Origin: Oscillospiraceae bacterium
GTDB lineage: Bacteria > Bacillota > Clostridia > Oscillospirales > Oscillospiraceae
DNA length: 64,000 nucleotides
Direction: 5' to 3'
NCBI GenBank assembly: GCA_015067885.1
Contig: SVLO01000003.1
Span: forward strand, 62,001 to 126,000
This document shows, one piece after another, positions 873 to 62,119 of this stretch. Positions within the stretch are counted from its first letter, which is position 1. The number at the start of each line of letters is the position of its first letter. The notes under the pieces were generated by a model. It saw only the letters and a list, made by a program, of their open reading frames with translations, searched no databases and was not told where the DNA came from. The translations under genes and the position numbers were made by a program.

Positions 873-3386
873 TTATTGATCGGCCGGACCCGCGGTGTCG
901 GCGCCGTCGCCCACAAGGCCAAGTTCCCGGGCGGCGTCCTGCCGCATCTTGTACTTCAAAATCTTGCCGGCGGCATTCATGGGGAAGCTGTCCACATATT
1001 TGATGTACTTGGGGACCTTGTGCCGGGCCATGCTGGCCTTGATGTAGTTCAGCATCTCGTCCACGGTGAGGGTGTTGCCCTCTTTCAGGATGATGCAGGC
1101 CATGATCTCCTCGCCGTATTTCTTGTCCGGCACGCCGATGACCTGCACGTCCTTCACGGCGGGGTGGGTGTAGATAAACTCCTCGATCTCCTTGGGGTAG
1201 ATGTTCTCGCCCCCTCGGATGATCATGTCCTTCAGGCGGCCGGTGATGCGGTAGTTGCCGTTTTCATCCTTGCAGGCAAGGTCGCCGGAGTGGAGCCAGC
1301 CCTCGGCGTCCACGGTGTCCCGGGTGGCCTGGGGCATTTTGTAGTAGCCCTTCATGGTGTTGTAACCCTTGGAGCAGAACTCGCCGTTGACGCCGTCGGC
1401 TACCTCCAGCCCGGTCTCGGGGTCCACGATCTTACAGCGCACGTGGGGGAAGGCGTAACCGACGGTGTCGGTGCGCAGATAGAGGTCGTCCGTCCAGGTA
1501 CTCATAGTGGAGCCGGGGGAGGACTCGGTCTGGCCGTACACGCTGACGATGCCGGTCATGTTCATCTCGTCGGGCTGGGCGGCCCGGCGCATCAGTTCCG
1601 GGGGGCAGCCCGCGCCGGCCATGATGCCCGTGCGCATGTGGGAGAAGTCCGTGCTGCGGTAGTCGGGGTGGTTGAACATGGCGATGAACATGGTGGGTAC
1701 GCCGTTGAAGCAGGTGATGCGTTCCTGATTGATACAGGCCAAAGACTGCTTGGCGGAGAAGTAGGGCAGGGGGCAGATTGTGGCGCCGTGGGTCATGGAG
1801 GAGGTCATGGACAGTACCATGCCGAAGCAGTGGAACATAGGCACCTGGATCATCATGCGGTCGGCGGTGGACAGGCCCATGCGGTCACCGATGCACTTGC
1901 CGTTGTTGACCACGTTGTAGTGGGTGAGCATAACGCCCTTGGGGAAGCCGGTGGTGCCGGAGGTATACTGCATATTGCACACGTCGTCGGGGCGGACGGC
2001 GGCGGCCATCTGGGCCACGGTCTCGGGGCTGACCAAGCTGGAGCGGGCCATAGCCTCATCAAAGGTCAGGCTGCCCGTCTGGCGGAAGCCAACGGTGATG
2101 ACGTTGCGCAGGAAGGGCAGGCGCTTGCAGTGCAGGGGCTGACCGGCCTTGGTTTGGGCGATCTCGGGACACAGCTCGTTGATGATGCCCTTGTAATCGG
2201 AGTCCAGGCAGGACTCGATCATCACCAGGGTGTGGGTGTCCGACTGGCGCAGGAGATACTCCGCCTCGTGAATTTTATAGGCGGTGTTTACCGTCACCAG
2301 CACCGCGCCGATCTTGGCCGCGGCCCAAAAGGAGATGTACCACTCGGGGACGTTGGTGGCCCAAACAGCCACCTTGCTGCCCGGCTTCACGCCCAAAGAC
2401 ACCAGCGCCCGGGCGAAGGTGTCCACGTCGTCCCTGAACTGGGAATAGGTGCGGGTGTAGTCCAGGGTGGTGTACTTGATGGCGTACTGGTCGGGGAACT
2501 CCTCGGCCATGCGGTCCAGCACCTGGGAGAAGGTCAGGTCGATGAGTTCGTCCTTCTTCCACACGTACTGGCCGGTGCCGTCGTGGTTGAAGTAGAGGGA
2601 CTTCTTCTTGCCCCGGGGGTTGTCAAAGCGGTTCATGTAGTTGACGAAGTAGGGGAAGATGACCTCCGGGTCCTGCAGGTCGTCCAAATAGTCCGGTTTC
2701 CACTCCAAAGACAGGAACCCGTCGTAGTTGACGGAGGACAGGGCCAGCATAAAGTCGGCGATGGGGGCGGTACCCTCACCGATGATGGTGTACTCGCCGC
2801 TGTCGTCGGAGTCCCGCAGGTGGACGTGGCGCACGTAGTCGCCCAAATTCTTGATGGTGGTGTCGCCGCTTTCACCGAAGTCCCGGTAGGGGTGATGCAC
2901 GTCCCACAGCACAGCCAGCTCGTCGCAGGCAAACTCGTCCAGCAGGCGGCGCAGGCGGGCGGTATCGGCGTAGATGCCGCTGGTTTTCATAAGAATGGTC
3001 ACATCAAAGGCGACCGCGTCGGCCAGCAGGGCGGAGAGGTTCTGCTTGACCCGCTCCTCGTTATCGGTCAGGGCCACGGCGGACACGTACTTCACCCGGG
3101 CGTTGCGGGCGGCCTCCATCAGGGTGCGAAGCTGGGCCACGGCGTCCCCCTCCGCGGACAGGTCGCAGGAGGTGTCGAAGCAGGGGATGGTGAGGTTTTT
3201 CTCTTTCAACTGGCGCACGGTGGCCGCCGCCTGATACTTATGGAAGGGGCCGGAGCGATCCATGAGGGGGTCGCACTTGGGCAGGTTGTAGACCTCGATA
3301 CCGCCGAAGTCCATGTCGGTGGCAAGGGAAACTACTTCATCCCAACTGAAATCAGCCCAACCCCGGGTGGAGAAGGAGAGCTTCAT
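873..3386 (-). CDS. Fusion of a xylose-isomerase-like TIM barrel to an AMP-forming acyl-CoA synthetase
   Basis: Residues 1 to about 265 form a sugar-phosphate isomerase/epimerase (AP-endonuclease 2 type) TIM barrel with LWDVHHPYRDFGE, YVRHVHLRD and FLSLEW as likely metal-site motifs. The first metal Glu expected in this family is not obvious (ILMKTSG at that strand). Residues ~270-837 form an acyl-CoA synthetase with the P-loop-like YTSGTTGFPKG near residue 475, YGQTE, and the C-terminal catalytic Lys in AAGKILK. The ligase would convert an acid, ATP and CoA to acyl-CoA; substrate unknown. The start overlaps the stop of the upstream IPMS-like gene (ATGA), implying translational coupling and shared T-box control. 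Domain calls are firm; the joint role is not known. Confidence 0.85.
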   Translation of the reverse strand: MKLSFSTRGWADFSWDEVVSLATDMDFGGIEVYNLPKCDPLMDRSGPFHKYQAAATVRQLKEKNLTIPCFDTSCDLSAEGDAVAQLRTLMEAARNARVKYVSAVALTDNEERVKQNLSALLADAVAFDVTILMKTSGIYADTARLRRLLDEFACDELAVLWDVHHPYRDFGESGDTTIKNLGDYVRHVHLRDSDDSGEYTIIGEGTAPIADFMLALSSVNYDGFLSLEWKPDYLDDLQDPEVIFPYFVNYMNRFDNPRGKKKSLYFNHDGTGQYVWKKDELIDLTFSQVLDRMAEEFPDQYAIKYTTLDYTRTYSQFRDDVDTFARALVSLGVKPGSKVAVWATNVPEWYISFWAAAKIGAVLVTVNTAYKIHEAEYLLRQSDTHTLVMIESCLDSDYKGIINELCPEIAQTKAGQPLHCKRLPFLRNVITVGFRQTGSLTFDEAMARSSLVSPETVAQMAAAVRPDDVCNMQYTSGTTGFPKGVMLTHYNVVNNGKCIGDRMGLSTADRMMIQVPMFHCFGMVLSMTSSMTHGATICPLPYFSAKQSLACINQERITCFNGVPTMFIAMFNHPDYRSTDFSHMRTGIMAGAGCPPELMRRAAQPDEMNMTGIVSVYGQTESSPGSTMSTWTDDLYLRTDTVGYAFPHVRCKIVDPETGLEVADGVNGEFCSKGYNTMKGYYKMPQATRDTVDAEGWLHSGDLACKDENGNYRITGRLKDMIIRGGENIYPKEIEEFIYTHPAVKDVQVIGVPDKKYGEEIMACIILKEGNTLTVDEMLNYIKASMARHKVPKYIKYVDSFPMNAAGKILKYKMRQDAARELGLVGDGADTAGPADQ

Positions 3387-4792
3387 ACGGATTCCTCCTC
3401 ATAGACGATTTTGTTCAGGGCGCTGAGGTAGGCGTTGATACCGGCGCACACGATGTCGGTGGAGATGCCGCGGCCGGAGTACAGCTTGCCGCCGGAGCGC
3501 AGGCGCACGATGGTCTGGCCCATAGCCTCCCGGCCCTCGGTAACGGCCTGAAGCTGGAAGTCGTCCAGCTCGTAGTGGCGGCCGGTGATCTGCTCGATGG
3601 CCAGGAAGGCGGCATCAATGGGGCCGTCGCCGATGCACACACCCTCCAGCACCTGCTCGTCCTTGATAAGGCGCATGTGGGCGGAGGAGGAGATGGTGTT
3701 GCCGGAGTTGATGACATAGGTGTCCAGCCGGTAGGTGGCGGGTACCTGCATGGCGGCGGAGGCCACGATGGCGTCCAGCTCCCGGATGCCCACCTGCTCC
3801 TTCTTGGCGGCGATGGCCCGGAAGGCCTCCACCACCTTGGCCCCATCCTCCTCGGACAGGTCATAGCCCAGCTTGGCCACGGCCTTCAGTACGGAATCGC
3901 CCTCGTCATGGGCGGAGAGGTAGATGCCTTCGTCCTCCCGCACGCCGCTGTCGAAGGGGGAGGTCTTTTTCTTCTCTGTCTGGCACATCCAGGTGATCTG
4001 ACCGATGATGCGGCTGAGCTGGGCGGTGCGGACGGTGGAGGTGGCCTGCAGGCTGTCGCCCCGGGCGGCCAAAATTTCGGCCAAACTGGACACGGAGGCG
4101 GTGTTTTGGGGATAGGCGGCGGCCTTGACTTCGCCGGTGCCCACAGCCACGGCGGCGATGGCGCAGGCATCGGCCAGGGACAGGGCGTTGCTGCAGCCTA
4201 CGCCCAGGGTCACGCCGGACAGGGCGGGGACCGCCTTGTAAAGACCGGCAATAAAGTCGGAGAATTCCCCGGGCAGCATGGTGCCGGCGGAGTCGCAGAC
4301 GGTGACGGTGGAGGCGCCGGCTTCGATGGCGGCGGTCAGAACACAGGCCAGGAACTGCCCGTCGGCGCGGGTAGCATCGTCGGCCACGAACTCCACGTCC
4401 TGACACAGGCCGCGGCACAGGGTGACGGCGGTTTTGATGTCCTCCAGTACAGACTCTGCCTTCTTGCGGTAGAGATACTCCATCTGCACGGAGCTGACGG
4501 GGGCGCACACCTGCAGGCGGGGGTGTTTGGCGTCCTTCAGGGCGTTCCACACGGCGGTGATGTTGGCCTGATTCAACTGCACGGGGACGGCCACAATGCT
4601 CTGCTGCACCGCCTGAGCCACCGACTTGACCCGCAGGGCGTCGATACGGCTGTCTGCCACGCCCTCCAGCTCGATGACGGAGACTCCAAGGCTGTCCAGC
4701 AGCTTGGCCAGCTCGATCTTCTCCCGGAAGGAAAGGGAAAAGCCCTTGCCCGCCTGCTTCATGGTTACGTCGCTGATGTTAATCTGTCGCAT
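3383..4792 (-). CDS. Divergent isopropylmalate/homocitrate-synthase-like protein lacking the usual metal ligands
   Basis: A DRE-TIM aldolase-like barrel (residues ~1-275) is followed by a LeuA-type C-terminal regulatory domain (~350-469, ending in AGINAYLSALNKIV), the layout of 2-isopropylmalate and citramalate synthases. The family signature DTTLRDGEQ is replaced by DVTMKQAGK, so the catalytic Arg is Lys and the metal Asp is gone. The HxHND metal motif is GCSNA, and GERAGN is YPQNTA. The protein may therefore be non-catalytic, regulatory, or use different chemistry. The chosen ATG (4792) has GGAG 8 bases upstream; a GTG at 4801 overlaps the ribosome site and is unlikely. It is the first gene behind the leftward T-box. 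Confidence 0.75.
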   Translation of the reverse strand: MRQINISDVTMKQAGKGFSLSFREKIELAKLLDSLGVSVIELEGVADSRIDALRVKSVAQAVQQSIVAVPVQLNQANITAVWNALKDAKHPRLQVCAPVSSVQMEYLYRKKAESVLEDIKTAVTLCRGLCQDVEFVADDATRADGQFLACVLTAAIEAGASTVTVCDSAGTMLPGEFSDFIAGLYKAVPALSGVTLGVGCSNALSLADACAIAAVAVGTGEVKAAAYPQNTASVSSLAEILAARGDSLQATSTVRTAQLSRIIGQITWMCQTEKKKTSPFDSGVREDEGIYLSAHDEGDSVLKAVAKLGYDLSEEDGAKVVEAFRAIAAKKEQVGIRELDAIVASAAMQVPATYRLDTYVINSGNTISSSAHMRLIKDEQVLEGVCIGDGPIDAAFLAIEQITGRHYELDDFQLQAVTEGREAMGQTIVRLRSGGKLYSGRGISTDIVCAGINAYLSALNKIVYEEESV

Positions 4793-4811
4793 ATAGATCA
4801 CTCCTGCCTAA

Positions 4812-5092
4812 ATAAAAAAGTCCCTGAGGTCCAAAGGACCTCAGGGACGAATATACATTCGCGGTACCACCCTGATTATCTCCCGAATGGGGGAAATCAC
4901 TCATCGGACTTCCAACAAAGTCCTATCCCGTAACGGGGGCGTCCGGGCTGCATTACTAACCGCCCAAAGCGGGTTCACGCAGCCGACTCGGGAAGCAGAC
5001 CGAACCTGTCCGTCGCGCCGGTTCGCACCAAACACCGGCTCTCTGAAGCGAGTTTGACAAGGCGGATTTTCCGTCAACGTCTTTCACAGTAT
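4812..5092 (-). promoter_or_regulatory. T-box riboswitch leader controlling the leftward operon
   Basis: The T-box sequence AGGGTGGTACCGCG reads leftwards at 4873-4860. Downstream is a 13-bp terminator hairpin (4820-4848) followed by six U. Stem I shows AGAGAG and the distal TTTGGTGCGAACC loop. A helix GGAA/TTCC next to a CGA bulge and GAC/GTC resembles the basal K-turn; the five-base loop strand above it is TCTGC, which contains CTG (Leu). T-boxes bind an uncharged tRNA and prevent termination, so the operon should turn on when that amino acid is scarce. The class is secure; the specifier codon is inferred. Confidence 0.9.
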
Positions 5093-5098
5093 GAAAGT

Positions 5099-5127
5099 AA
5101 TATAAAGGAAAGAAAACGGTTTGTCAA
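5099..5127 (-). promoter_or_regulatory. SigA-type promoter of the leftward T-box operon
   Basis: The -35 TTGACA (5127-5122) and -10 TATATT (5104-5099) are separated by 17 bases. Transcription would start near 5092, at the beginning of the T-box leader. Confidence 0.8.
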
Positions 5128-5175
5128 CCCTCTGAACAAATTTTTTCTTTAACGCAGTAAATTGTAAAAAAGTAG

Positions 5176-5204
5176 TTGACAAAGTCGGGCGGGTGTGGTA
5201 GAGT
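5176..5204 (+). promoter_or_regulatory. SigA-type promoter of the rightward T-box operon
   Basis: The -35 TTGACA (5176-5181) and -10 TAGAGT (5199-5204) have a 17-base spacer. Its -35 is about 50 bases from the divergent -35, so the two promoters are back to back without overlapping. Confidence 0.75.
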
Positions 5205-5210
5205 GTGTTC

Positions 5211-5477
5211 AATCGAAAAACAAAAGACTGTGACGAAGACGGTTCGGTCCTTCGAATGTGCAGAGAGTCGGCGGTTGGTGCAAGCCGGTCATTCGAACCC
5301 AGGGAACCCATCACTTCCGAGTCGGTGAGCCGAGCGTGTGCCAGGCTCTCCCGTCAGCCCGCGTTAAGGGATAGGACTTGTTGGAGTCTGAAGTGACGGC
5401 GCAAGCCGTAATTTGAGTGGTACCGCGGGTGCATTGTTACTCGTCTCAAGAAGATGGTTCTTCTTGGGGCGTTTTTT
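5211..5477 (+). promoter_or_regulatory. T-box riboswitch leader controlling the rightward operon
   Basis: The T-box sequence GAGTGGTACCGCGGG lies at about 5415-5429, followed by a 13-bp terminator hairpin (5442-5471) and TTTTTT. Stem I contains AGAGAG (5262-5267) and GGTTGGTGCAA. The helix TTCGAATG/CATTCGAA supports the upper stem. GAAG/CTTC next to a CGA bulge and GAC/GTC resembles the basal K-turn, leaving CATCA as the specifier-loop strand with ATC (Ile) at 5310-5312 followed by A. The RNA class is secure; the amino acid is an inference from geometry shared with the opposite leader. Confidence 0.9.
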
Positions 5478-5510
5478 ATTTGCCCGATCTACCTATAAGG
5501 AGTGAGTGTT

Positions 5511-7775
5511 ATGAGTAACGTAAGTCCCACAACTCAGCTGATGGATGTGGCCATGCGAATTCGCGAGATGCGCGAGATTCTTGGCTTCAGCACGGCTGAT
5601 ATGGCGGAAAAGACCGAACTGGACCAGGAAACCTACGTTCTCTATGAGTCCGGCACGGTGGACCTGCCCTTCACCTTTATGCACAAGTGCGCCAAGATCT
5701 TCGGCGTGGAGATTACCGTGCTGCTGGAGGGGCAGAGCGCCAAGCTGTCCGGCTACACCGTTACCCGCCGGGGCAAGGGTCTGACCACCGCCAGCGAGGA
5801 CGGCATCACCATCCAGGACATGGCCCCCATGTTCCGGCAGAAGCTGGCCACCCCTTACTGGGTCACCTACGAGTACTCCGAGGAGCTGCAGGATAAGCCC
5901 ATCCACACCGTTACCCACGCCGGTCAGGAGTTTGACCTGGTTATCAAGGGTTCCATGCGTATCCGGGTGGGCGACCACGAGGAGATCCTGCACGAGGGTG
6001 ACAGCATCTTCTACAAGTCCTCCACCCCCCACGGCATGATCGCCATTGACGGACAGGACTGCGTGTTCCTGGCCATGATCATGGTGTCCGACACCACCGA
6101 CCAAAAGCTGTACATCGGCGCCAAGCGCAAGACCGCCAACGACCAGCTGCTGTGCCACAAGTTCATCCACGCCCTGGAGGATGCCAACGGCGCGCTGAAG
6201 AATGTGACCTTCGAAAACGCCGACAAGTACAACTTCGCCTTTGACACCGTGGATGCCATCGCCCGGCAGGAGCCGGACAAGCTGGCTATGGTCCACATTG
6301 CCAACGATATGACCGAGCGGCGCTTTACCTTTAAGAATATGAAGGACGCATCCTCCCAAAGCGCCAACTACTTCAAATCCCTGGGCATCAAGCGGGGGGA
6401 CCGGGTCATGCTGGTACTCAAGCGGCACTACCAGTTCTGGTTTGCCATCCTGGGCCTGCACAAGCTGGGCGCCATCGCCATCCCCGCCACCAACCAGTTG
6501 CTGGAGAAGGACTTTGCTTACCGCTTCGAGGCCGCCGGGGTCAGCGCACTGATCTGCACCGCCGACGGCGAGGCGGCCCACCAGGCGGAGCTGGCCGAGC
6601 AGAAGCTGGGCATGGACCTGACCAAGATCATGGTTGGCGGCAGCCGGGAGGGCTGGCACAACTACGACGAGGAGTACAGCCTGTTCAGCCGCCGCTACCT
6701 GCGCGGCGAGGACGCCCCCTGCGGCAGCGACCCCATGCTGATGCTCTTTACCTCCGGTACCACCGGCTACCCCAAGATGGCCCTGCACAGCTACAAATAC
6801 GCCCTGGGCCACTACGTTACCGCCAAGTACTGGCACCTGGCCGAGCGGGACGGCCTGCACTTCACCATCTCCGAGACCGGCTGGGGCAAGGCGCTGTGGG
6901 GCAAGCTCTACGGCCAGTGGCTGTGTGAGGGTGCCGTGTTTACCTACGATTTTGACCGCTTCGACGCCGAGAAGATCCTGCCTATGTTCAAGCAGTACGG
7001 CATCACCACCTTCTGCGCCCCGCCCACCATGTACCGTATGCTCATCAAGCAGGACTTGAGCCGCTTTGATTTGAGCAGCATCCACCACGCCACCACGGCG
7101 GGCGAGGCCCTGAACCCCGAGGTGTTCCACCAGTTTGAAAAGGCCACCGGCCTGCGCATTGCCGAGGGCTTCGGCCAGACCGAGATGACCCTTGGTATCG
7201 CCAACCTCATGGGTACCCTGCTCAAGCCCGGCGCCATGGGCAAGCCGGTACCCGGCTATGGCATTGACCTTGTGGATACCGAGGGCAACCCCGTGGCCGA
7301 CGGCGTCAACGGCGAGATCGTCATCCGTACTGACCCCGCCCCCACCTGCGGCGTGTTCTCCGGCTACTACCGCAATCAGGAGGCCACCGATGCCGTGTGG
7401 CACGACGGTATGTACCACACCGGCGACCTGGCCTGGCGGGATGAGGACGGCTACTACTGGTACGTGGGCCGCGCCGACGATGTTATCAAGTCCTCCGGCT
7501 ACCGCATCGGCCCCTTCGAGATCGAAAGCACCATTATGGAGCTGCCCTACGTGCTGGAATGCGGCGTGTCCGCCGAGCCGGACGAGGTCCGCGGCCAGGT
7601 GGTCAAGGCCAGCATCGTACTGGTCAAGGGTACCGAGGGTACTGACGAGCTGAAAAAGGAAATTCAGGAGTACGTCAAGGCCCGCACCGCCCCCTACAAG
7701 TATCCCCGCATCGTGGTCTTCCGCGACGAGCTGCCCAAGACCATCAGCGGCAAAATTATCCGCAACAAGCTGTAA
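5511..7775 (+). CDS. XRE DNA-binding domain + cupin + AMP-forming acyl-CoA synthetase fusion
   Basis: Three domains are visible. An XRE-type helix-turn-helix (about residues 10-65) is followed by a cupin barrel (~110-185, with HTVTHAGQEF and GDSIFYKSSTPHG); together these look like the common XRE-cupin transcription factors. The rest (~210-754) is an acyl-CoA synthetase with FTSGTTGYPK near residue 413, GFGQTE, the TGD hinge region and the catalytic Lys in TISGKI. It should activate a carboxylic acid to its acyl-CoA; the partner oxidoreductase downstream suggests a branched-chain or aryl acid. The ATG at 5511 is chosen because AAGGAG sits 8 bases upstream; an in-frame GTG at 5502 overlaps that site. 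First gene after the rightward T-box. Confidence 0.88.
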   Translation: MSNVSPTTQLMDVAMRIREMREILGFSTADMAEKTELDQETYVLYESGTVDLPFTFMHKCAKIFGVEITVLLEGQSAKLSGYTVTRRGKGLTTASEDGITIQDMAPMFRQKLATPYWVTYEYSEELQDKPIHTVTHAGQEFDLVIKGSMRIRVGDHEEILHEGDSIFYKSSTPHGMIAIDGQDCVFLAMIMVSDTTDQKLYIGAKRKTANDQLLCHKFIHALEDANGALKNVTFENADKYNFAFDTVDAIARQEPDKLAMVHIANDMTERRFTFKNMKDASSQSANYFKSLGIKRGDRVMLVLKRHYQFWFAILGLHKLGAIAIPATNQLLEKDFAYRFEAAGVSALICTADGEAAHQAELAEQKLGMDLTKIMVGGSREGWHNYDEEYSLFSRRYLRGEDAPCGSDPMLMLFTSGTTGYPKMALHSYKYALGHYVTAKYWHLAERDGLHFTISETGWGKALWGKLYGQWLCEGAVFTYDFDRFDAEKILPMFKQYGITTFCAPPTMYRMLIKQDLSRFDLSSIHHATTAGEALNPEVFHQFEKATGLRIAEGFGQTEMTLGIANLMGTLLKPGAMGKPVPGYGIDLVDTEGNPVADGVNGEIVIRTDPAPTCGVFSGYYRNQEATDAVWHDGMYHTGDLAWRDEDGYYWYVGRADDVIKSSGYRIGPFEIESTIMELPYVLECGVSAEPDEVRGQVVKASIVLVKGTEGTDELKKEIQEYVKARTAPYKYPRIVVFRDELPKTISGKIIRNKL

Positions 7776-7787
7776 GGGGAGAGGGCT

Positions 7788-8453
7788 ATGGAACACAAGC
7801 GCCTGACCCTGTTCGCCGGCCACTACGGCAGCGGCAAGACCAATATTGCCGTCAACTACGCCCTGCACTTGGCGGGGGAGGGGAAGAAGGTCTGCATTGC
7901 AGATTTGGATATCGTCAATCCTTACTTCCGGACCAAGGACAGCTCCGCGGAGCTGAAGGCGGCGGGGGTAGAGCTGATCTCTCCCCAATTTGCCAACTCC
8001 AACGTGGACCTGCCCGCCCTGCCGGCGGAGAGCTACCGGCTGGTGCAGGACCGCAGCGCCTACGGTGTCATGGACATCGGCGGCGACGACCGGGGTGCCT
8101 ACGCCCTGGGCCGCTACGTGCCGTTTATCAAGGAAGAGGACGACTACCGCATGGCCTTCGTGGTCAACTTCCTGCGGCCCTTGACCACCACCGCGCAAGA
8201 GGCGCTGGAGGTCATGGGGGAAATTGAGGCCGCCTGCGGCCTGAACTTCACCTGCATCGTCAACAACACCAATCTGGGGTGGGAGACCACCCGGGACGTG
8301 CTGGATGTGTCCCAAAGCAAGGTGGACGAGCTGTGCCGCCTGTCCGGGCTGCCCCTGTGGCTGACCACGGCGGAGGAAACATTGGCCGCAAATATGGGCG
8401 AAACCGTATTCGGCCTGAAGCTGCAAAAGAAATATTTTGATATACCCCGGTAA
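7788..8453 (+). CDS. SIMIBI-class P-loop ATPase of unknown role in the vor operon
   Basis: The N-terminus has a Walker A motif (GHYGSGKT, residues ~10-17) followed by DLDIVNPYFR, typical of MinD/ParA/CooC-like ATPases with a deviant switch region. No membrane segment or DNA-binding domain is visible in its 221 residues. It lies 12 bases after the acyl-CoA ligase gene and 17 bases before the ferredoxin subunit gene, with a good ribosome site (GGGGAGAGGG). Relatives in this ATPase class partition DNA, place proteins or insert metal centres; a maturation role for the Fe-S/TPP oxidoreductase is possible but is only suggested by position. Confidence 0.75.
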   Translation: MEHKRLTLFAGHYGSGKTNIAVNYALHLAGEGKKVCIADLDIVNPYFRTKDSSAELKAAGVELISPQFANSNVDLPALPAESYRLVQDRSAYGVMDIGGDDRGAYALGRYVPFIKEEDDYRMAFVVNFLRPLTTTAQEALEVMGEIEAACGLNFTCIVNNTNLGWETTRDVLDVSQSKVDELCRLSGLPLWLTTAEETLAANMGETVFGLKLQKKYFDIPR

Positions 8454-8470
8454 ATGAGGAGGAGAGAACC

Positions 8471-8677
8471 ATGGCAAAACTCACGTTCAAAACCGACCTG
8501 TGCAAGGGCTGCGGTCTGTGTGTCAGCACCTGTCCCAAGAAGTGCCTGGCCATTGATACCGCAAGCATTAACAAGAAAGGATATTCTCCCGCCGTTATGG
8601 TGAATGGGGATGCGTGTATCGGCTGCGCCTTCTGTGCGACGATGTGTCCCGACTGCATCATCACCGTGGAGAAGTAA
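8471..8677 (+). CDS. vorD: 2-oxoacid:ferredoxin oxidoreductase delta subunit (2[4Fe-4S] ferredoxin)
   Basis: This 68-residue protein has two CxxCxxCxxxC clusters (CKGCGLCVSTC and CIGCAFCATMC), each followed by Pro or Asp, as in the delta subunits of pyruvate- and branched-chain-oxoacid:ferredoxin oxidoreductases. It carries electrons between the TPP/Fe-S core and external ferredoxin. The gene lies directly before the alpha-subunit gene (13-base gap) and has a GGAGGAGAG ribosome site. The Vor label comes from the alpha subunit; substrate choice cannot be read from this subunit. Confidence 0.88.
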   Translation: MAKLTFKTDLCKGCGLCVSTCPKKCLAIDTASINKKGYSPAVMVNGDACIGCAFCATMCPDCIITVEK

Positions 8678-8690
8678 GGAGGAACCCAAT

Positions 8691-9752
8691 ATGGCAGAAC
8701 GAGTCCTTATGAAGGGTAACGAAGCCATTGCCGAGGCCGCCATTCGCGCCGGCTGCCGGCACTACTTCGGCTACCCCATCACCCCCCAGACGGAGATCGC
8801 CGCCTATATGGCCAAGAAGATGCCCAAGATCGGCGGCGTGTTCCTGCAGGCGGAGAGCGAGATCGCGTCCATCAACATGGTCTACGGCGCCGCTGCCGCC
8901 GGTATGCGTGTCATGACCTCCTCCTCCAGCCCCGGCATCTCCCTGAAGGCCGAGGGGTTGAGTTATTTGGCCGGCTCCGACATTCCCGCCTTCGTGGTCA
9001 ACGTCCAGCGTGGCGGCCCCGGTCTGGGCGGCATCCAGCCCAGCCAGGCGGACTACTTCCAGGCCACCAAGGGCGGCGGTCACGGCGACTACCGCATGAT
9101 CGTGCTGGCCCCCGCCAGCGTGCAGGAGATGGCCAGCCTGACCATCAAGGGCTTTGACCTGGCGGATAAGTACAACATGACCGCCATGATCCTGGCCGAC
9201 GGCACCATCGGTCAGATGATGGAACCCATCACCTTTGAGGACGAGGAAATCAAGCAGTATGAAAAGCCCTGGGCCCTGACCGGCCATGAGGGCAAACGCC
9301 CCCACAACGTGGTCAACTCCCTCTACCTCAAGCCGGAGGAGCTGGAGCGCAAGAACTTCGAGCGCTACGAGCGTTACAAGCTGGTGGAAGAGAACGAGGC
9401 CATGTGGGAGGAGTACATGATGGAGGACGCCGAGTATTGCGTGGTGGCCTTCGGCATCGCCGCCCGCGTTGCCAAGAACGCCGTGGTGGCCGCCCGGGAG
9501 GCGGGTATCAAGGTGGGCCTCATCCGTCCCATCACCCTGTGGCCCTTCCCCAAGAAGGTGCTGGAGCAGGCCGCGGACAAGGTGAAAGGCTTTGTCTGCG
9601 TGGAGCTGAGCATGGGTCAGATGATCGAGGACGTGCGCCTTGCCACTAATTGCAAGCGCCCCGTGGGCCTTGTCTGCCGCAGCGGCGGTATGGTCCCCAG
9701 CCCCGACGAGGTGCTGGGCGGCATTGAAAACGCTGTGAAAGGAGTGTACTAA
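8691..9752 (+). CDS. vorB: 2-oxoacid:ferredoxin oxidoreductase alpha subunit, VorB-like
   Basis: The 353-residue protein matches the VorB type (3-methyl-2-oxobutanoate dehydrogenase alpha subunit, ~350 residues): [14 protein letters not shown] at the N-terminus, [27 protein letters not shown] and [11 protein letters not shown]. The family reversibly converts a 2-oxoacid, CoA and oxidised ferredoxin to acyl-CoA, CO2 and reduced ferredoxin. The ATG at 8691 is chosen because GGAGG precedes it by 7 bases; the longer reading frame (from 8604) only overlaps vorD. Preference for branched-chain, aryl or other oxoacids cannot be settled from sequence alone. Confidence 0.9.
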
Positions 9753-9754
9753 CG

Positions 9755-10510
9755 ATGGCTGTTGTGTTTGACAAACCCAAGTCCCTTGCGGACCTGCCCC
9801 TGCACTACTGTCCCGGCTGCCCCCACGGCATCATCCACCGCCTGGTGGCCGAGGCCCTGGACGAGCTGGGCATCGAGGGCAAGGCCATCGGTATCGCTCC
9901 CGTTGGCTGCGCCGTTATGGCTTACGATTACTTCACCTGCGATATGATCGAGTCCGCCCACGGCCGCGCCCCCGCCGTTGCCACCGGCATCAAGCGCTGC
10001 CGCCCGGACAACATTGTCTTTACCTATCAGGGTGACGGCGACCTTGCCTCCATCGGTATGGCGGAGACCGTCCACGCCGCCGCCCGCAACGAGAACATCA
10101 CCGTCATCTTCGTCAACAACGCCATTTACGGCATGACCGGCGGTCAGATGGCTCCCACCACCCTGCCCGGTCAGGTGACCCAAACCTCTCCCTACGGCCG
10201 TGACGTCAACCACTGCGGCTGGCCCATCCGGGTCAGCGAGATGCTGGCCACCCTGGAGGGTCCCGAGTACATCACCCGGGTAGCAGTGAACAACGTAAAG
10301 AACGTGATGAACGCCAAGAAGGTCATCAAAAAGGCCTTCCAAAATCAGATGGAGGGCAAGGGCTTCAGTCTGGTGGAAGTGGTCTCCGCCTGTCCCACCA
10401 ACTGGGGTATGACGCCCGAGCAGGCCCTGAAGTGGGTGGACAGCGATATGTTGCCCTACTATCCCATTGGCGTCTATAAGGACAGAAGTGCCGCGAAGGA
10501 GGAGAAGTGA
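9755..10510 (+). CDS. vorA: 2-oxoacid:ferredoxin oxidoreductase beta subunit (TPP-binding)
   Basis: The 251-residue beta subunit has the N-terminal [14 protein letters not shown], the GDGDLASIG thiamine-diphosphate motif near residue 93 and the [11 protein letters not shown] segment, all typical of the PorB/VorA/IorB group. It holds the TPP cofactor and, by family knowledge, a [4Fe-4S] cluster ligated by conserved cysteines. It starts 2 bases after the vorB stop and ends inside the ribosome site of vorC, so the subunits are made in fixed proportion. Confidence 0.92.
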
Positions 10511-10512
10511 AG

Positions 10513-11052
10513 ATGAAAACCACTCAAATCCTCATTGCCGGCTTCGGCGGTCAGGGCATCCTGTTCGCCGGTAAGTTCCTGGCCTATAAGGGCCTGAAGG
10601 AGGACCTGCAGGTGTCCTGGCTTCCCTCCTATGGTCCCGAAATGCGCGGCGGAACCGCCAACTGCAACATCATCCTGTCCGACACCCCCGTGGGTTCCCC
10701 CATCATCACTACCCCCGACGTGCTGGTGGTGATGAACCTGCCTTCCCTGCAGAAGTATGTGGACACCGTTGCCCCCGGCGGTCAGATCTACGTGGACAGC
10801 ACCCTCATCCAGGAAAAGGTCCAGCGCACCGACGTGGAAGTGTTCTACGTCCCCGCCACCCAACTGGCCCGCCAGGCCGGCGCCGGCTCTCTTGCCAACA
10901 TGGTGCTGGTGGGCAGCCTGCTGCAGAACCACCCCGAGCTGTCCTTTGACGGCGTGGACAACGTGGTCAACAGCCTGGTCCCCCCCAAGAAGGCCGCCAT
11001 GGTGGAGCTGAATATGAAGGTGCTGACCCTGGGCAAGGAGTACGGCGGCTGA
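10513..11052 (+). CDS. vorC: 2-oxoacid:ferredoxin oxidoreductase gamma subunit
   Basis: The 179-residue protein begins with the Rossmann-like AGFGGQGILFAGKFLA of PorG/VorC/IorB-type gamma subunits and contains GPEMRGGTANC, both diagnostic of the family (CoA-binding and subunit-contact role). The ATG at 10513 is preferred because AAGGAGG is about 9 bases upstream; an in-frame GTG at 10507 is too close. It completes the D-B-A-C set. No hairpin follows it, so some read-through into the dehydrogenase gene is possible. Confidence 0.9.
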   Translation: MKTTQILIAGFGGQGILFAGKFLAYKGLKEDLQVSWLPSYGPEMRGGTANCNIILSDTPVGSPIITTPDVLVVMNLPSLQKYVDTVAPGGQIYVDSTLIQEKVQRTDVEVFYVPATQLARQAGAGSLANMVLVGSLLQNHPELSFDGVDNVVNSLVPPKKAAMVELNMKVLTLGKEYGG

Positions 11053-11172: not shown

Positions 11173-12204
11173 ATGAACGCAATGACTGAAATGAGCAACT
11201 ACCGCCATGAAAAGGTGCTGTTCGTCAACAATGAGAAGGCCGGTCTGAAGGCCATCATCGCCGTACACAACACCAACCTGGGCCCCGCCATCGGCGGCTG
11301 CCGCCTGTTCCCCTATGCCAGCTATGACGACGCCCTGTTTGATGTGCTGCGCCTGTCCCGTGGCATGAGCCACAAGAACGCCGTTGCCGGCCTGCCCCAC
11401 GGCGGCGGTAAGGGTGTCATCATCGCCGACCCCTCCCAGAAGACCGAGGCCATGTTCGAGGCATTTGCAGAGGCGGTCAATAACCTGGGCGGCGACTACA
11501 TCACCGCCGAGGACGTGAACACCACCTGCGACGATGCCATGGTCATGCTGCGCAAGACCAAGTATCTGTGCGGCCTGCCCATGAACAGCGGCGACCCCTC
11601 TCCCTTCACCGCCCGCGGCGTGTGGCAGGGTATCCGCGCCACCGCCAAGGTGGCTCTGGGCAGTGACGACCTGTCCGGCCTGACCATCGCCGTGCAGGGC
11701 CTGGGCAAGGTTGGCTATGACCTGTGCCGTCTGCTGCATGAAAGCGGCGCCAAGCTCATCGTGGCCAACCGCAGCAACAAGGCCATTGCCGACAAGGCCG
11801 CCGCCGAGTTCGGCGCCAAGGTGGTCGCCACCGAGGACATCATGGCCCAGGAGTGCGACATCTTCTCTCCCAACGCCATGGGCGCCATCCTGAACCCCAA
11901 CACCATCCCCAACCTGAAGTGCAAGGCCGTCGCCGGCGGCGCCAATAACCAGATCCTGGACGATGCCTCCGGCCTGGCTCTGAAAGCCCGCGGCATCTTC
12001 TACGCCCCCGACTTCGTCATCAACGGCGGCGGTGTTATCAACGCCGCGGCCGAGGTGGACGGCCCCTACAACAAGGACGAGGTGCTGGTCAAGGTGGACA
12101 ACATCTACAACACTATCGAGAACATCCTCGCCGAGTCCAAGAAGACCGGCGAACCCGAGGGTGTTATCGCCACCCGCTACGCCGAGTCCCTCATCTACGG
12201 CTAA
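11173..12204 (+). CDS. Leucine/valine/phenylalanine dehydrogenase-like enzyme (Glu/Leu/Phe/Val dehydrogenase family)
   Basis: At 343 residues it has the size of leucine dehydrogenases rather than glutamate dehydrogenases (~450). The glycine-rich GGGKGVI with the catalytic Lys lies near residue 79, and GGCRLFPY near the N-terminus. AVQGLGKVGYDLC forms the NAD-binding fold. The enzyme interconverts a branched-chain or aromatic amino acid with its 2-oxoacid and NH3. Placed directly after vorDBAC it would join the amino acid and acyl-CoA pools, in either direction. A strong AAGGAGG precedes the ATG and a terminator follows the stop. Confidence 0.87.
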   Translation: MNAMTEMSNYRHEKVLFVNNEKAGLKAIIAVHNTNLGPAIGGCRLFPYASYDDALFDVLRLSRGMSHKNAVAGLPHGGGKGVIIADPSQKTEAMFEAFAEAVNNLGGDYITAEDVNTTCDDAMVMLRKTKYLCGLPMNSGDPSPFTARGVWQGIRATAKVALGSDDLSGLTIAVQGLGKVGYDLCRLLHESGAKLIVANRSNKAIADKAAAEFGAKVVATEDIMAQECDIFSPNAMGAILNPNTIPNLKCKAVAGGANNQILDDASGLALKARGIFYAPDFVINGGGVINAAAEVDGPYNKDEVLVKVDNIYNTIENILAESKKTGEPEGVIATRYAESLIYG

Positions 12205-12217
12205 GATACGTAAAAAA

Positions 12218-12248
12218 GCGGAGTATGCATTGCATACTCCGCTTTTTT
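12218..12248 (+). terminator. Strong terminator after the dehydrogenase gene
   Basis: A 12-bp perfect stem (GCGGAGTATGCA with TGCATACTCCGC) is followed by TTTTTT and preceded by AAAAAA, so it can work in both directions. Confidence 0.88.
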
Positions 12249-12447
12249 GCGGGAAGAAAACCACCGGCACGGCCGGAGGTTCTGAAACGCGTTCGCCATG
12301 CCCGGTCCCGCATCGGCGTAGGGTCCGACGACTCGGTGGGCCGTGGGCGGCCACATGGGGGCGGCGTCCTCGACACCCTGCCCTGCCGGGGAAGGGGCGG
12401 TTATGATTTGTGCCTGATATTGGGGATAAGAAAGTACAGGCGTGGGA

Positions 12448-12476
12448 TTGTTTTTTTTATATGGGTAGTGTATAAT
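12448..12476 (+). promoter_or_regulatory. Promoter of the Lrp-aminotransferase operon
   Basis: TTGTTT (12448-12453), 17-base spacer and a perfect TATAAT (12471-12476). The predicted start of transcription is about 30 bases before the Lrp start codon. Confidence 0.65.
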
Positions 12477-12513
12477 AAATCATTACTCAAAAATGGATAC
12501 GGAGGCACTGGAC

Positions 12514-12996
12514 ATGAAGAAAAAAATACTCAAGCTGCTTGAAAAGAATTGCACCATGGACCGGGATCAACTGGCCGCCATGGCCGGTGTGACCCGGGAT
12601 GAGGTGGACGATACCATTGCCACGCTGGAAAAAGAGGGCGTCATCCGGGGGTATCAGGCTCTCATCGACTGGGAATGCGTGGAGCCGGAGCGAGTCAGCG
12701 CCCTGATCCAGGTGAATGTGACCCCCCAGACTGCCGATGGCTACGACGCCATTGCCGAGCAGGTGCAGCAGTACGACGAGGTGGAGAGTATGTACCTCAT
12801 GAGCGGCGGCTACGATTTCGTGGTGCTGCTGTCCGACTGTACCCTGCGTGAGGTGGCGGAGTTCGTTGCCCGGCGCCTTGCCCCCATTGACGGTGTCACC
12901 GGCACCTCCACCCACTTTGTTCTCAACCGCTATAAGGAGCAGCGGGTCAGCTTCCGCAAATGGAACGCGCCCCAAGAAAGGTTTGTCTTTGAATGA
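12514..12996 (+). CDS. Lrp/AsnC family transcriptional regulator
   Basis: The 160-residue protein has an N-terminal winged helix (KKILKLLEKNCTMDRDQLAAMAGVTRDEV...) and a C-terminal RAM ligand-binding domain (VSALIQVNV through GVTGTSTHFVLNRYKE), the complete Lrp/AsnC layout. These proteins sense amino acids and form octamers. The ATG at 12514 is chosen for its GGAGG 8 bases upstream; an earlier in-frame ATG at 12493 lies before that site. Its stop overlaps the aminotransferase start (ATGA), so the pair is co-translated. It probably controls amino acid genes here, including its own operon. Confidence 0.9.
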   Translation: MKKKILKLLEKNCTMDRDQLAAMAGVTRDEVDDTIATLEKEGVIRGYQALIDWECVEPERVSALIQVNVTPQTADGYDAIAEQVQQYDEVESMYLMSGGYDFVVLLSDCTLREVAEFVARRLAPIDGVTGTSTHFVLNRYKEQRVSFRKWNAPQERFVFE

Positions 12997-14162
12997 TGGA
13001 CTATTCCAAGATTCTTAACCAGACGGTCCAGGCCATCCCGCCCTCCGGTATCCGCAAGTACTTTGACCTGCTGGCCGGAATGGAGGGGGGTATCTCCCTG
13101 GGCATTGGCGAGCCGGACTTTGTCACCCCCTTCCATATCCGTAAGGCGGGTATCACCTCCCTGGAAAAGGGGTACACGAAGTACACCCCCAACGCCGGTC
13201 TGACCGACCTGCGCCGGGCCATCAGCGAGTATATGAAGCGCCGGTTCGACCTGGACTACGCCCCCCAGGGTCAGGTGCTGGTCACCGTGGGCGGCAGCGA
13301 GGGCATTGACCTTGTTATGCGCAGTCTGCTCTCCCAGGGGGACGAGGTCATTATCCCCACGCCTTCCTTCGTCTGCTACGGACCGCTGGCCTCCATGGCC
13401 GGAGGCGTTCCCATCATGGTGCAGACCAAGGCGGAGAACGAGTTTCGCCTGACGGCGGAGGAGCTGCGCGCTGCCATCACCCCTAAAACCAAGCTGCTGG
13501 TGCTGCCCTTCCCCAACAATCCCACCGGCGGCATTATGGAGCGGGCGGATCTGCAGGCCATCGCCGACGTGCTGCGGGACACGGACATCGTGGTCCTGTC
13601 CGACGAGATCTACGCCGAGCTGACCTACGGTCAGCAGCACTGTTCGCCCGCCACGCTGCCCGGTATGTATGAGCGGACCATCGTAGTCAACGGCTTTTCC
13701 AAGGCCTACTCCATGACCGGCTGGCGCATGGGCTTTTTGTGCGGACCCGAGGAGATCATTGCCGCCGTGACCAAGCTGCACCAGTTCGGCATCATGTCCG
13801 CCCCCACCACCAGCCAGTACGCCGCCATTGAGGCCATGCGTTACGGCGACAGGGACATTCAGAAAATGCGGGACGAGTACGACGGGCGCCGCCGCTTTTT
13901 GGTCAGCGGATTTCGCAAGCTGGGCCTTGATTGCTTTGAGCCAAAGGGTGCCTTCTACACCTTCCCCTGTATCAAGTCCACCGGCCTGACCAGTGAGCAG
14001 TTCTGCGACCGGCTCATTGAGCAGGAGCGGGTAGCCGTCATTCCCGGTACGGCATTCGGAGCCGGGGGAGAGGGGTACGTGCGGGCCTGCTACGCCGCGT
14101 CCATGAAGGATTTGGCCGAGGCCCTGCGCCGCATCGAGCGGTTTGTCAAAAGTTTGAAATAA
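12993..14162 (+). CDS. Class I/II PLP-dependent aminotransferase
   Basis: At 389 residues it has the fold-type I aminotransferase motifs: NNPTGG, SDEIYAELTYG, and the PLP lysine in FSKAYSMTGWRMGF near residue 235, with a C-terminal substrate Arg region (YVRACYAAS). The family moves amino groups between amino acids and 2-oxoacids, often aspartate, alanine or aromatic/branched substrates. It overlaps the Lrp gene by 4 bases. Position near the dehydrogenase and Vor genes suggests branched-chain or aromatic amino acid metabolism; exact specificity is not visible. Confidence 0.87.
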   Translation: MMDYSKILNQTVQAIPPSGIRKYFDLLAGMEGGISLGIGEPDFVTPFHIRKAGITSLEKGYTKYTPNAGLTDLRRAISEYMKRRFDLDYAPQGQVLVTVGGSEGIDLVMRSLLSQGDEVIIPTPSFVCYGPLASMAGGVPIMVQTKAENEFRLTAEELRAAITPKTKLLVLPFPNNPTGGIMERADLQAIADVLRDTDIVVLSDEIYAELTYGQQHCSPATLPGMYERTIVVNGFSKAYSMTGWRMGFLCGPEEIIAAVTKLHQFGIMSAPTTSQYAAIEAMRYGDRDIQKMRDEYDGRRRFLVSGFRKLGLDCFEPKGAFYTFPCIKSTGLTSEQFCDRLIEQERVAVIPGTAFGAGGEGYVRACYAASMKDLAEALRRIERFVKSLK

Positions 14163-47095: not shown

Positions 47096-47130
47096 GGGCG
47101 CACCGATACACGCAAATGTACGGTGCGCCC
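47096..47130 (-). terminator. Possible intra-operon attenuator between purN and purO
   Basis: A 10-bp stem (GGGCGCACCG with CGGTGCGCCC) followed leftwards by TGTTTTAA, in the 143-base gap. Confidence 0.6.
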
Positions 47131-47212
47131 AGACGGTCGGCAAGTTTTATGCGGTACTCCCTGTGGTCAATTCCACTTCCGTCAGTCATATCGCACGCGG
47201 TTAAATTGTCGG

Positions 47213-61648: not shown

Positions 61649-61722
61649 TGGAGGTGCCACCCAGATTTGAACTGGGGGTGGAGCTTTTGCAGAGCTCTGC
61701 CTTACCACTTGGCTATGGCACC
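61649..61722 (-). tRNA. tRNA-Cys (GCA)
   Basis: A 74-base cloverleaf with encoded CCA. The acceptor GGTGCCA pairs with TGGCACC; the anticodon loop CTGCAAA has GCA. Last gene of the tRNA operon. Confidence 0.96.
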
Positions 61723-61751
61723 ACATGGAGCGGTATTCCGCCCCAAAAAAA

Positions 61752-61827
61752 TGGAGCGAGTGACGAGGCTCGAACTCGCTACCTCCACCTTGGCAAGGTG
61801 GCGCTCTACCAGATGAGCTACACTCGC
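61752..61827 (-). tRNA. tRNA-Gly (GCC)
   Basis: A 76-base cloverleaf with encoded CCA. Acceptor GCGAGTG pairs with CACTCGC; anticodon stem CCACC/GGTGG holds loop TTGCCAA with GCC. Confidence 0.96.
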
Positions 61828-61870
61828 ATTTTGCCCTGAAAGGGGAGGACCCTCTCAGGGGCTTTGTTGT

Positions 61871-61946
<76 letters not shown>

Positions 61947-61949
61947 AAA

Positions 61950-62026
<77 letters not shown>

Positions 62027-62043
62027 AGATGGTAAAGGATTAA

Positions 62044-62119
62044 TGGTGGGAACAACAGGGCTCGAACCTGTGACATCATGCTTGTAAGGCATGCGCTCTA
62101 CCAGCTGAGCTATGCTCCC
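62044..62119 (-). tRNA. tRNA-Val (TAC)
   Basis: A 76-base cloverleaf with encoded CCA. Acceptor GGGAGCA, anticodon loop CTTACAA with TAC. First gene of the Val-Asp-Phe-Gly-Cys operon. Confidence 0.96.

Follow-up and report, generated by a model that had tools for sequence, protein, structure and literature searches.

The present study concerns a divergent locus at positions 873-11052 of a 64,000-nt stretch of DNA from an Oscillospiraceae bacterium (assembly GCA_015067885.1, contig SVLO01000003.1, positions 62,001-126,000 of the forward strand; the whole stretch is called the window hereafter). The assembly comprises 1.93 Mb in 43 contigs and is 87% complete. Searches of the window with Rfam, Pfam and NCBIfam models identify two divergent operons, each headed by a T-box leader, and the analyses described below suggest that they are very probably a starvation-controlled module for making leucine, isoleucine and valine from branched short-chain acids of the surroundings. 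The Leu leader (5086-4840, minus strand) matches RF00230 at 106.6 bits, above the Rfam cut-off of 93, with the specifier CUG at 4996-4998; the Ile leader (5221-5451, plus strand) carries AUC at 5310-5312 and matches at 91.7 bits, slightly below that cut-off, with an E value of 1.2e-20 on a short stretch. Both specifiers are read with a score of 13.4, and each agrees with the amino acid of the gene behind it. Folds of the 80-nt leader ends give a strong terminator hairpin with a T-run in each case (4814-4848, minus strand, -31.1 kcal/mol, for Leu; 5442-5476, plus strand, -26.1 kcal/mol, for Ile).

On the minus strand, the Leu leader precedes a LeuA-like pseudo-isopropylmalate synthase (4789-3383; PF00682 and PF08502), which joins a degenerate HMGL-type barrel to a LeuA_dimer domain, and a fusion protein (3386-873; PF01261, PF00501 and PF13193) composed of a xylose-isomerase-like TIM barrel (residues ~1-275) and an AMP-forming acyl-coenzyme A (CoA) ligase (residues ~280-820). 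On the plus strand, the Ile leader is followed by a second AMP-forming acyl-CoA ligase, here fused to helix-turn-helix (HTH) and cupin domains (5511-7775; PF12844, PF07883, PF00501 and PF13193), by a ParA/NUBPL-like P-loop NTPase (7788-8453; PF10609, below its cut-off) and by four adjacent VOR/KOR-type subunits of a 2-oxoacid:ferredoxin oxidoreductase: the 4Fe-4S ferredoxin subunit VorD (8471-8677; Pfam Fer4 families), the alpha-type subunit VorB (8691-9752), the thiamine pyrophosphate-binding subunit VorA (9755-10510; PF02775) and the gamma subunit VorC (10507-11052; PF01558). VorB exceeds its cut-off (NF005507, 548.5 bits against 399); VorA, VorC and VorD score below the cut-offs of the NCBIfam models shown. 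An earlier sequence-only reading had described back-to-back T-box leaders over divergent operons, with an AMP-forming ligase in each and VorDBAC after one, and the model matches bear it out; right as that gene content was, it did not include the LeuA homologue, the domain fusions, the P-loop gene or the specifiers.

The specifier was taken to be the three bases at a set distance ahead of the 3′ strand of the lower helix of stem I, and a read was accepted only where that helix and the K-turn were present. The rule was tried on 13 T-boxes of the same genome, the two of the window among them, and was right in all six leaders that have a nameable gene and a score of at least 11.6: Val (ValRS), Ile (IleRS), Trp (two TrpX-like transporter proteins), Thr (ThrRS) and Cys (CysE). 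Five of these six gene names are backed by model matches, the check covering all but the second TrpX-like protein; the names TrpX, IleS and AlaS are best model matches below cut-offs, those of IleS and AlaS on cut fragments. At lower scores the rule failed for GlyRS (7.6) and HisRS (10.6), and the AlaRS leader went unread. Plain misreads in the wider set were the leader of locus L110 (ATC by eye) and the Leu and Ile leaders of L208 (CTG and ATC by eye).

The rule was then applied to relatives, represented by 60 stretches from a 101-genome panel of the family, with regions picked from homologue matches, by 80 named loci (the best 80 of 580 relatives) and by 20 further stretches; identical leaders were removed, although some duplicates of a single contig may still be included. 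The 96 LeuA-like genes yielded 58 high-score reads, all 58 of them Leu, together with ten low-score reads, of which seven are Leu and three are not. Fusions from eight loci without a LeuA-like gene gave six Leu reads, the other two having no T-box core. The HTH-cupin-type ligases, counted as 130 genes or fragments with standalone relatives included, gave 80 high-score reads (51 Ile, 26 Val, 1 Leu and 2 other), 4 low-score reads, 7 cores that could not be read and 39 genes without a core. Many relatives possess a third arm, a ligase behind a Val-specifier leader, and the Leu, Ile and Val arms occur together with Vor genes in panel loci L122, L123 and L124 (the Leu read of L123 is low-score, and the L122 and L124 stretches end within Vor genes) and in the Erysipelotrichaceae isolate NK3D112 (L208), where two of the leaders were read by eye. 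The T-box codon labels each arm, and substrate assignments are therefore readable from sequence. None of the specifiers read at the LeuA-like, fusion and ligase genes of the fetched set stands for Phe, Tyr or Trp, and the aromatic (phenylacetate) route that the sequence-only reading had allowed was rejected on this ground. That reading had also held that specifiers unrelated to acyl-CoA/2-oxoacid chemistry would speak against it; those found are Leu and Ile here and Val in the relatives' third arm. As a separate observation, the fusion also occurs in metagenome-assembled genomes labelled Salinivirgaceae, Bacteroidia, Abditibacteriota and Eggerthellaceae (L181, L192, L199, L201, L209, L211 and others), which may reflect transfer or misbinning.

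One position of the acyl pocket in the Ile and Val ligases tracks the RNA codon. A tree of 120 ligases contains one clade of 33 members, 17 of them with Val reads and none with Ile, another of 26 members, 23 of them with Ile reads and none with Val, and a mixed outer group. Comparison of the two clades gives four differences fixed at at least 90%, one of which, residue 459 in the motif GW(G/A)K, also splits the remainder: it is Gly in 49/49 Ile-specifier ligases and Ala in 25/25 Val-specifier ligases, hence without exception in the 74 ligases on the tree that have an Ile or Val read. The ligase of the window has Gly459, encoded at 6885-6887 (plus strand). No other alignment column has as much mutual information with the specifier, and parsimony on the single tree counts six specifier changes, six residue changes and six joint changes. 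The motif alone, searched free of any alignment, returns Gly in 44/44 Ile and Ala in 25/25 Val genes, with eight Ile or Val genes lacking the motif or that region, and all 34 loci with two motif-bearing ligases have one Gly and one Ala. Outside the 74, two extra leaders read by eye (genomes G023 and G085) pair GTC with Ala, in genomes where ilvC is not over its cut-off, and the residues of unread panel ligases agree with the covariation. L092 is an outlier, with Ala at 459 behind a Leu-reading leader; its ligase (G011, 11726-13921; specifier CTC) lies upstream of VorDBAC and may have a rewired specifier. Separately, two sister ligases in L137 (6821-9076, Ile and Gly; 4083-6338, Val and Ala) could have arisen by recent duplication or by gene conversion, codon and residue having changed together.

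The Ile-arm ligase is related to ligases of the MbcS/MacsMa type. Its best NCBIfam model is MbcS (NF047394), at 423.5 bits against an equivalog cut-off of 850, and its nearest relative in the PDB is 3etc (606 bits over 514 residues), which carries Gly at the site of residue 459. We take 3etc, from the title of the structure paper as it stands in a reference list, to be MacsMa of Methanosarcina acetivorans. MacsMa is reported to prefer 2-methylbutyrate and to depend critically on Trp259 for binding its substrate (PMC10455477); the YHTGD motif, at 431-435 in that paper, shows the numbering of chain and paper to differ by 23, which puts the pocket Gly at 255, four residues before Trp259. Ala in place of Gly would fill roughly the space of one methyl group, matching the difference between 2-methylbutyrate and isobutyrate, and the specifier and Gly459 together point to 2-methylbutyrate as the substrate of the Ile arm. 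The MbcS relation also suggests another use for these enzymes: MbcS of Staphylococcus aureus is reported to channel 2-methylbutyryl- and isobutyryl-CoA into fatty acids (PMC10026030), and ligases of the same type sit here behind Ile and Val T-boxes, where, at times of branched-chain amino acid scarcity, they might provide the branched acyl-CoA that primes membrane fatty acid synthesis. We consider such a role very unlikely. It does not need VorDBAC, which is found lined up after the Ile or Val ligase, and it predicts neither the branch-specific rarity of leuB and of ilvC/ilvD described below, nor a LeuA-type regulatory subunit, nor a strict match of codon and pocket for each amino acid.

In relatives, Vor genes lie at most 6 kb away in 48 of the 158 fetched loci, on the same strand in 43. 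They can share one line with the ligases and the LeuA-like gene: in L133 one strand carries the HTH-cupin ligase, the P-loop gene, VorDBAC, the LeuA-like gene and the fusion, with 12 bases separating the VorC and LeuA-like matches, and L095 has the order VorB-VorA-VorC-LeuA-like-fusion. Vor enzymes can run in either direction, and fermenters of amino acids use them for oxidation. The module could, on that basis, be catabolic or exporting, with Vor oxidising 2-oxo acids derived from amino acids and the ligases recycling the acids. T-boxes, however, turn genes on in amino acid shortage, AMP-forming ligases work towards acyl-CoA, and most carriers are without the usual biosynthetic genes; we give this use hardly any credence. 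Two further observations concern these genes. A second, divergent VorBAC type (VorB identity 43-53%, no VorD match) stands beside the same ligases or LeuA-like genes in L095, L100, L128, L132, L137 and L139. The P-loop NTPase is also placed between ligase and VorD in relatives and is possibly an Fe-S or assembly helper.

The distribution of the classical genes in the 101-genome panel, with presence defined as a score over the model cut-off, supports biosynthesis by another route. The fusion scores above 700 bits in 36 of the 101 genomes, and 28 of these have the LeuA-like gene (in pieces in G057). Only 1/28 genomes with the LeuA-like gene have leuB over the cut-off, as against 49/73 of the others (p 2.5e-9 by Fisher's test, which here ignores shared ancestry). 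The deficit is specific to the leucine branch: within genomes that have ilvC, leuB occurs in 1/5 with the LeuA-like gene and in 45/47 without it (p 2.7e-4), and G029, G043, G061 and G100 retain ilvC and ilvD but not leuB. Genomes with a Val ligase have ilvC in 0/16 and ilvD in 0/16, compared with 52/85 for each in the others (p 2.1e-6); the 16 comprise 14 assigned by specifier, G094 by a low-score read and G092 by clade, and adding the by-eye G023 and G085 gives 0/18 against 52/83. Restriction to genomes at least 90% complete leaves leuB at 1/17 versus 37/50 and ilvC at 0/8 versus 39/59. Fusion genomes without the LeuA-like gene (n = 8) have leuB in four cases and ilvC in five. In NK3D112 neither leuB nor ilvC is over its cut-off. 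In the genome of the window, at 87% completeness, nothing matched ilvD, leuB or the aconitase family, and its ilvC match reaches only 18.6 bits (cut-off 226); its congener G039 has ilvC, ilvD, leuB and the aconitase family and lacks the fusion. The absence of ilvC, ilvD and leuB from carriers, which the sequence-only reading had put forward as a check, is thus found branch by branch, with exceptions. Citramalate synthase, tried as a marker of the classical Ile route, was over its cut-off in 5/101 genomes and was uninformative.

The LeuA-like protein appears to have exchanged one function for another. The window protein scores 293 bits with the best LeuA model (cut-off 532), and both the Arg and Asp of DTTLRDGEQ and the two His of HxH are replaced, residues that, with the GERAGNA segment, we take to have catalytic or metal-binding roles. 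When 17 LeuA-like proteins are set against 10 true LeuA proteins of the same family, the metal-type Asp survives in at most 2/17 and so does each His, and the GERAGNA-type segment is deleted in 15-17 of the 17, depending on position. Among barrel columns invariant in LeuA, 32/98 are retained in at most 10% of LeuA-like proteins; among invariant LeuA_dimer columns, 13/15 are retained in at least 90%, and PF08502 matches the window protein at 99.3 bits against 24.9. Conservation is accordingly inverted between barrel and dimer domain (0.575 and 0.748 in LeuA-like, 0.748 and 0.592 in true LeuA). Because the catalytic residues are lost and the leucine-type regulatory domain is conserved, the protein is a probable leucine-sensing subunit; conservation and gene order together suggest that it is probably a non-catalytic, leucine-sensing partner of the isovalerate ligase. 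It might instead still be an enzyme with an altered, metal-free activity, the Leu arm then being a condensation rather than a plain carboxylation of isovalerate, given that the HMGL-type barrel persists and still aligns with isopropylmalate synthases and that some members retain the N-terminal Arg. We regard this as unlikely: besides the lost metal residues and deleted segment, the barrel is less conserved than the regulatory domain, leuB over the cut-off is missing in 27/28 LeuA-like carriers, and the leaders of fusions with no LeuA-like gene in the fetched stretch read Leu in 6/6 readable cases. On balance, we lean towards the view that a dead isopropylmalate synthase now exerts feedback control on an unrelated isovalerate ligase and that the Gly/Ala pocket evolved in lockstep with the Ile/Val codon. 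If this is true, duplication is followed by a joint change of RNA codon and enzyme specificity.

The ligase of the Leu arm belongs to another branch, its best model being NF009233 (fatty acid CoA ligase; 673.5 bits, cut-off 832), and we propose that the fusion is an isovalerate-CoA ligase. In the MbcS study, KM values are below 10 μM for 2-methylbutyrate and isobutyrate and above 500 μM for isovalerate (PMC10026030); that MbcS hardly uses isovalerate is in line with a distinct ligase type for the Leu arm. Residue 134 of the TIM barrel, a putative metal-ligand Glu, is Lys in 73/95 and Glu in 18/95 fusions with a LeuA-like partner, and Glu in 6/6 fusions from loci without one; the barrel looks decayed where the LeuA-like protein is present.

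Collectively, these data are consistent with a model in which accumulation of uncharged tRNA-Leu or tRNA-Ile would allow the corresponding T-box leader to permit transcription of its own operon. The TIM-barrel fusion of the Leu arm would make isovaleryl-CoA from isovalerate, the Ile arm would pair a 2-methylbutyrate-CoA ligase with VorDBAC, and the Val arm of relatives would contribute an isobutyrate-CoA ligase. VorDBAC, whose 2-oxo acid substrates and direction we infer, would carboxylate the acyl-CoA products with reduced ferredoxin and CO2, and the resulting 2-oxo acids could be aminated by a transaminase encoded elsewhere in the genome. By binding leucine, the LeuA-like protein may restrain the isovalerate ligase, which would add feedback at the protein level to control by RNA. 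The Leu, Ile and Val specifiers and the rarity of the ilv and leu genes favor what the sequence-only reading had proposed for branched amino acids, namely CoA activation followed by ferredoxin-dependent carboxylation.

Several observations weigh against this model. Only 48/158 loci have Vor genes nearby, many loci being short or cut by contig ends, and T-box cores are out of reach for 28/96 LeuA-like genes and for 39/130 ligases, such as the HTH-cupin ones in the ilvC-containing genomes G024 and G098. Standalone ligases without HTH-cupin domains and without a T-box read are evenly divided (7 Ala, 7 Gly), and standalone ligases without HTH-cupin domains also occur in genomes with ilvC. Shared ancestry within the panel enters none of the Fisher tests. 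Among fusion genomes, 5/36 keep leuB and 10/36 keep ilvC; in a second set of 50, drawn from the 80 named genomes and possibly overlapping with the panel, leuB is over the cut-off in 4/50 and ilvC in 10/50. The Ile ligase without the Val ligase shows no association with ilvC (9/16), as expected if valine still needs IlvC. No Val arm was found in the genome of the window, which is 87% complete. KARI_N alone matches there twice, at 24.2 and 20.3 bits, at or just above the Pfam cut-off; the second match is a dehydrogenase of the window, and both are taken for generic NAD-binding folds. Finally, leuB-like genes scoring below the cut-off, at 131-265 bits, exist in 3/28 LeuA-like genomes (G058, G062 and G076) and in 20/50 of the second set. 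Ten of them, typed by NCBIfam, are best matched as isocitrate (six) or tartrate dehydrogenase (four: G058, G076, G119 and G134), and those of G058, G076 and G119 also score, at 399-402 bits, barely over the cut-off of 393 of another model for 3-isopropylmalate dehydrogenase; counting G058 and G076 as leuB gives 3/28 versus 49/73 (p 3.0e-7). The model also gives the TIM barrel and the P-loop NTPase no role.

Downstream of VorC lie a dehydrogenase-like gene (11173-12204; best NCBIfam model ScyB, 356.7 bits, cut-off 600) and an aminotransferase gene (12993-14162). The sequence-only reading had these two finish the route; the genes are present, but their place in the unit was rejected, as neither is conserved beside the operon: among the fetched loci, the dehydrogenase appears nowhere outside the window, and besides the window a single locus (L162) has an aminotransferase close by. 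Elsewhere in the window are a ZMP/ZTP riboswitch (47120-47199, minus strand, 55.4 bits) and five clustered tRNA genes (61652-62119, minus strand). Further T-boxes of the same genome (L003, L005, L006 and L009) include two near-identical Trp leaders before TrpX-like proteins (in L003 the best match is TrpX, below cut-off), and a Tyr and a Phe leader, which stand before an EamA-like and an MFS-like protein, respectively; the last two names were given by inspection, neither protein having a model match at E 1e-30.

The chemistry of the proposed route is known. Since the 1960s, branched short-chain acids have been recognized both as growth factors for rumen bacteria and as the precursors from which Leu, Ile and Val are made, and the carboxylation route to these amino acids in rumen bacteria and methanogens was reportedly worked out by Allison and co-workers in the 1960s-70s. 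A passage citing Allison describes the formation in the rumen of Leu by carboxylation of isovalerate, of Ile from 2-methylbutyrate and of Val from isobutyrate (PMC7356843), and a passage on methanogens describes the conversion of 2-methylbutyrate to Ile and of isovalerate to Leu (PMC10658910). Chemistry and substrates are the same as proposed here; those passages, however, treat physiology without these genes, whereas the present system has separate ligases, a T-box per amino acid, a pseudo-LeuA and domain fusions. MacsMa and MbcS share the ligase domain of the Ile arm and, in the passages cited above, use 2-methylbutyrate (MbcS also isobutyrate), but here the domain is fused to HTH-cupin and its pocket comes in two types, Gly under Ile T-boxes and Ala under Val T-boxes. 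T-box control of branched-chain amino acid synthesis in Bacillales and Clostridia was covered in a survey (PMC2494555), the main text of which has no word starting with acyl, CoA or ferredoxin; relative to the classical T-box ilv/leu operons of Firmicutes, the RNA class and amino acids are the same, but here acyl-CoA ligases and Vor are under control. LeuA, likewise, has its fold family and allosteric LeuA_dimer domain in common with the LeuA-like protein, but not the lost catalytic residues. No description of the gene system came up in searches of the open-licence literature. Although the chemistry is known, the genes, control and sensor thus appear to be new, specifically the three-arm T-box logic, the codon/pocket covariation, the branch-specific rarity of ilv and leu genes and the dead LeuA as a probable leucine sensor.

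Many uncultured gut bacteria, then, appear to re-carboxylate the branched acids of other microbes to Leu, Ile and Val, with one T-box-controlled ligase for each of the three. The module thereby supplies candidate genes for rumen-type nutrition from branched short-chain acids and bears on isoacid feed additives. The covariation of codon and residue means that an RNA switch could annotate enzyme specificity down to one methyl group. Moreover, the module predicts cross-feeding from amino acid fermenters to carriers, and it could explain apparent auxotrophies in gut genomes that are without ilv and leu genes.

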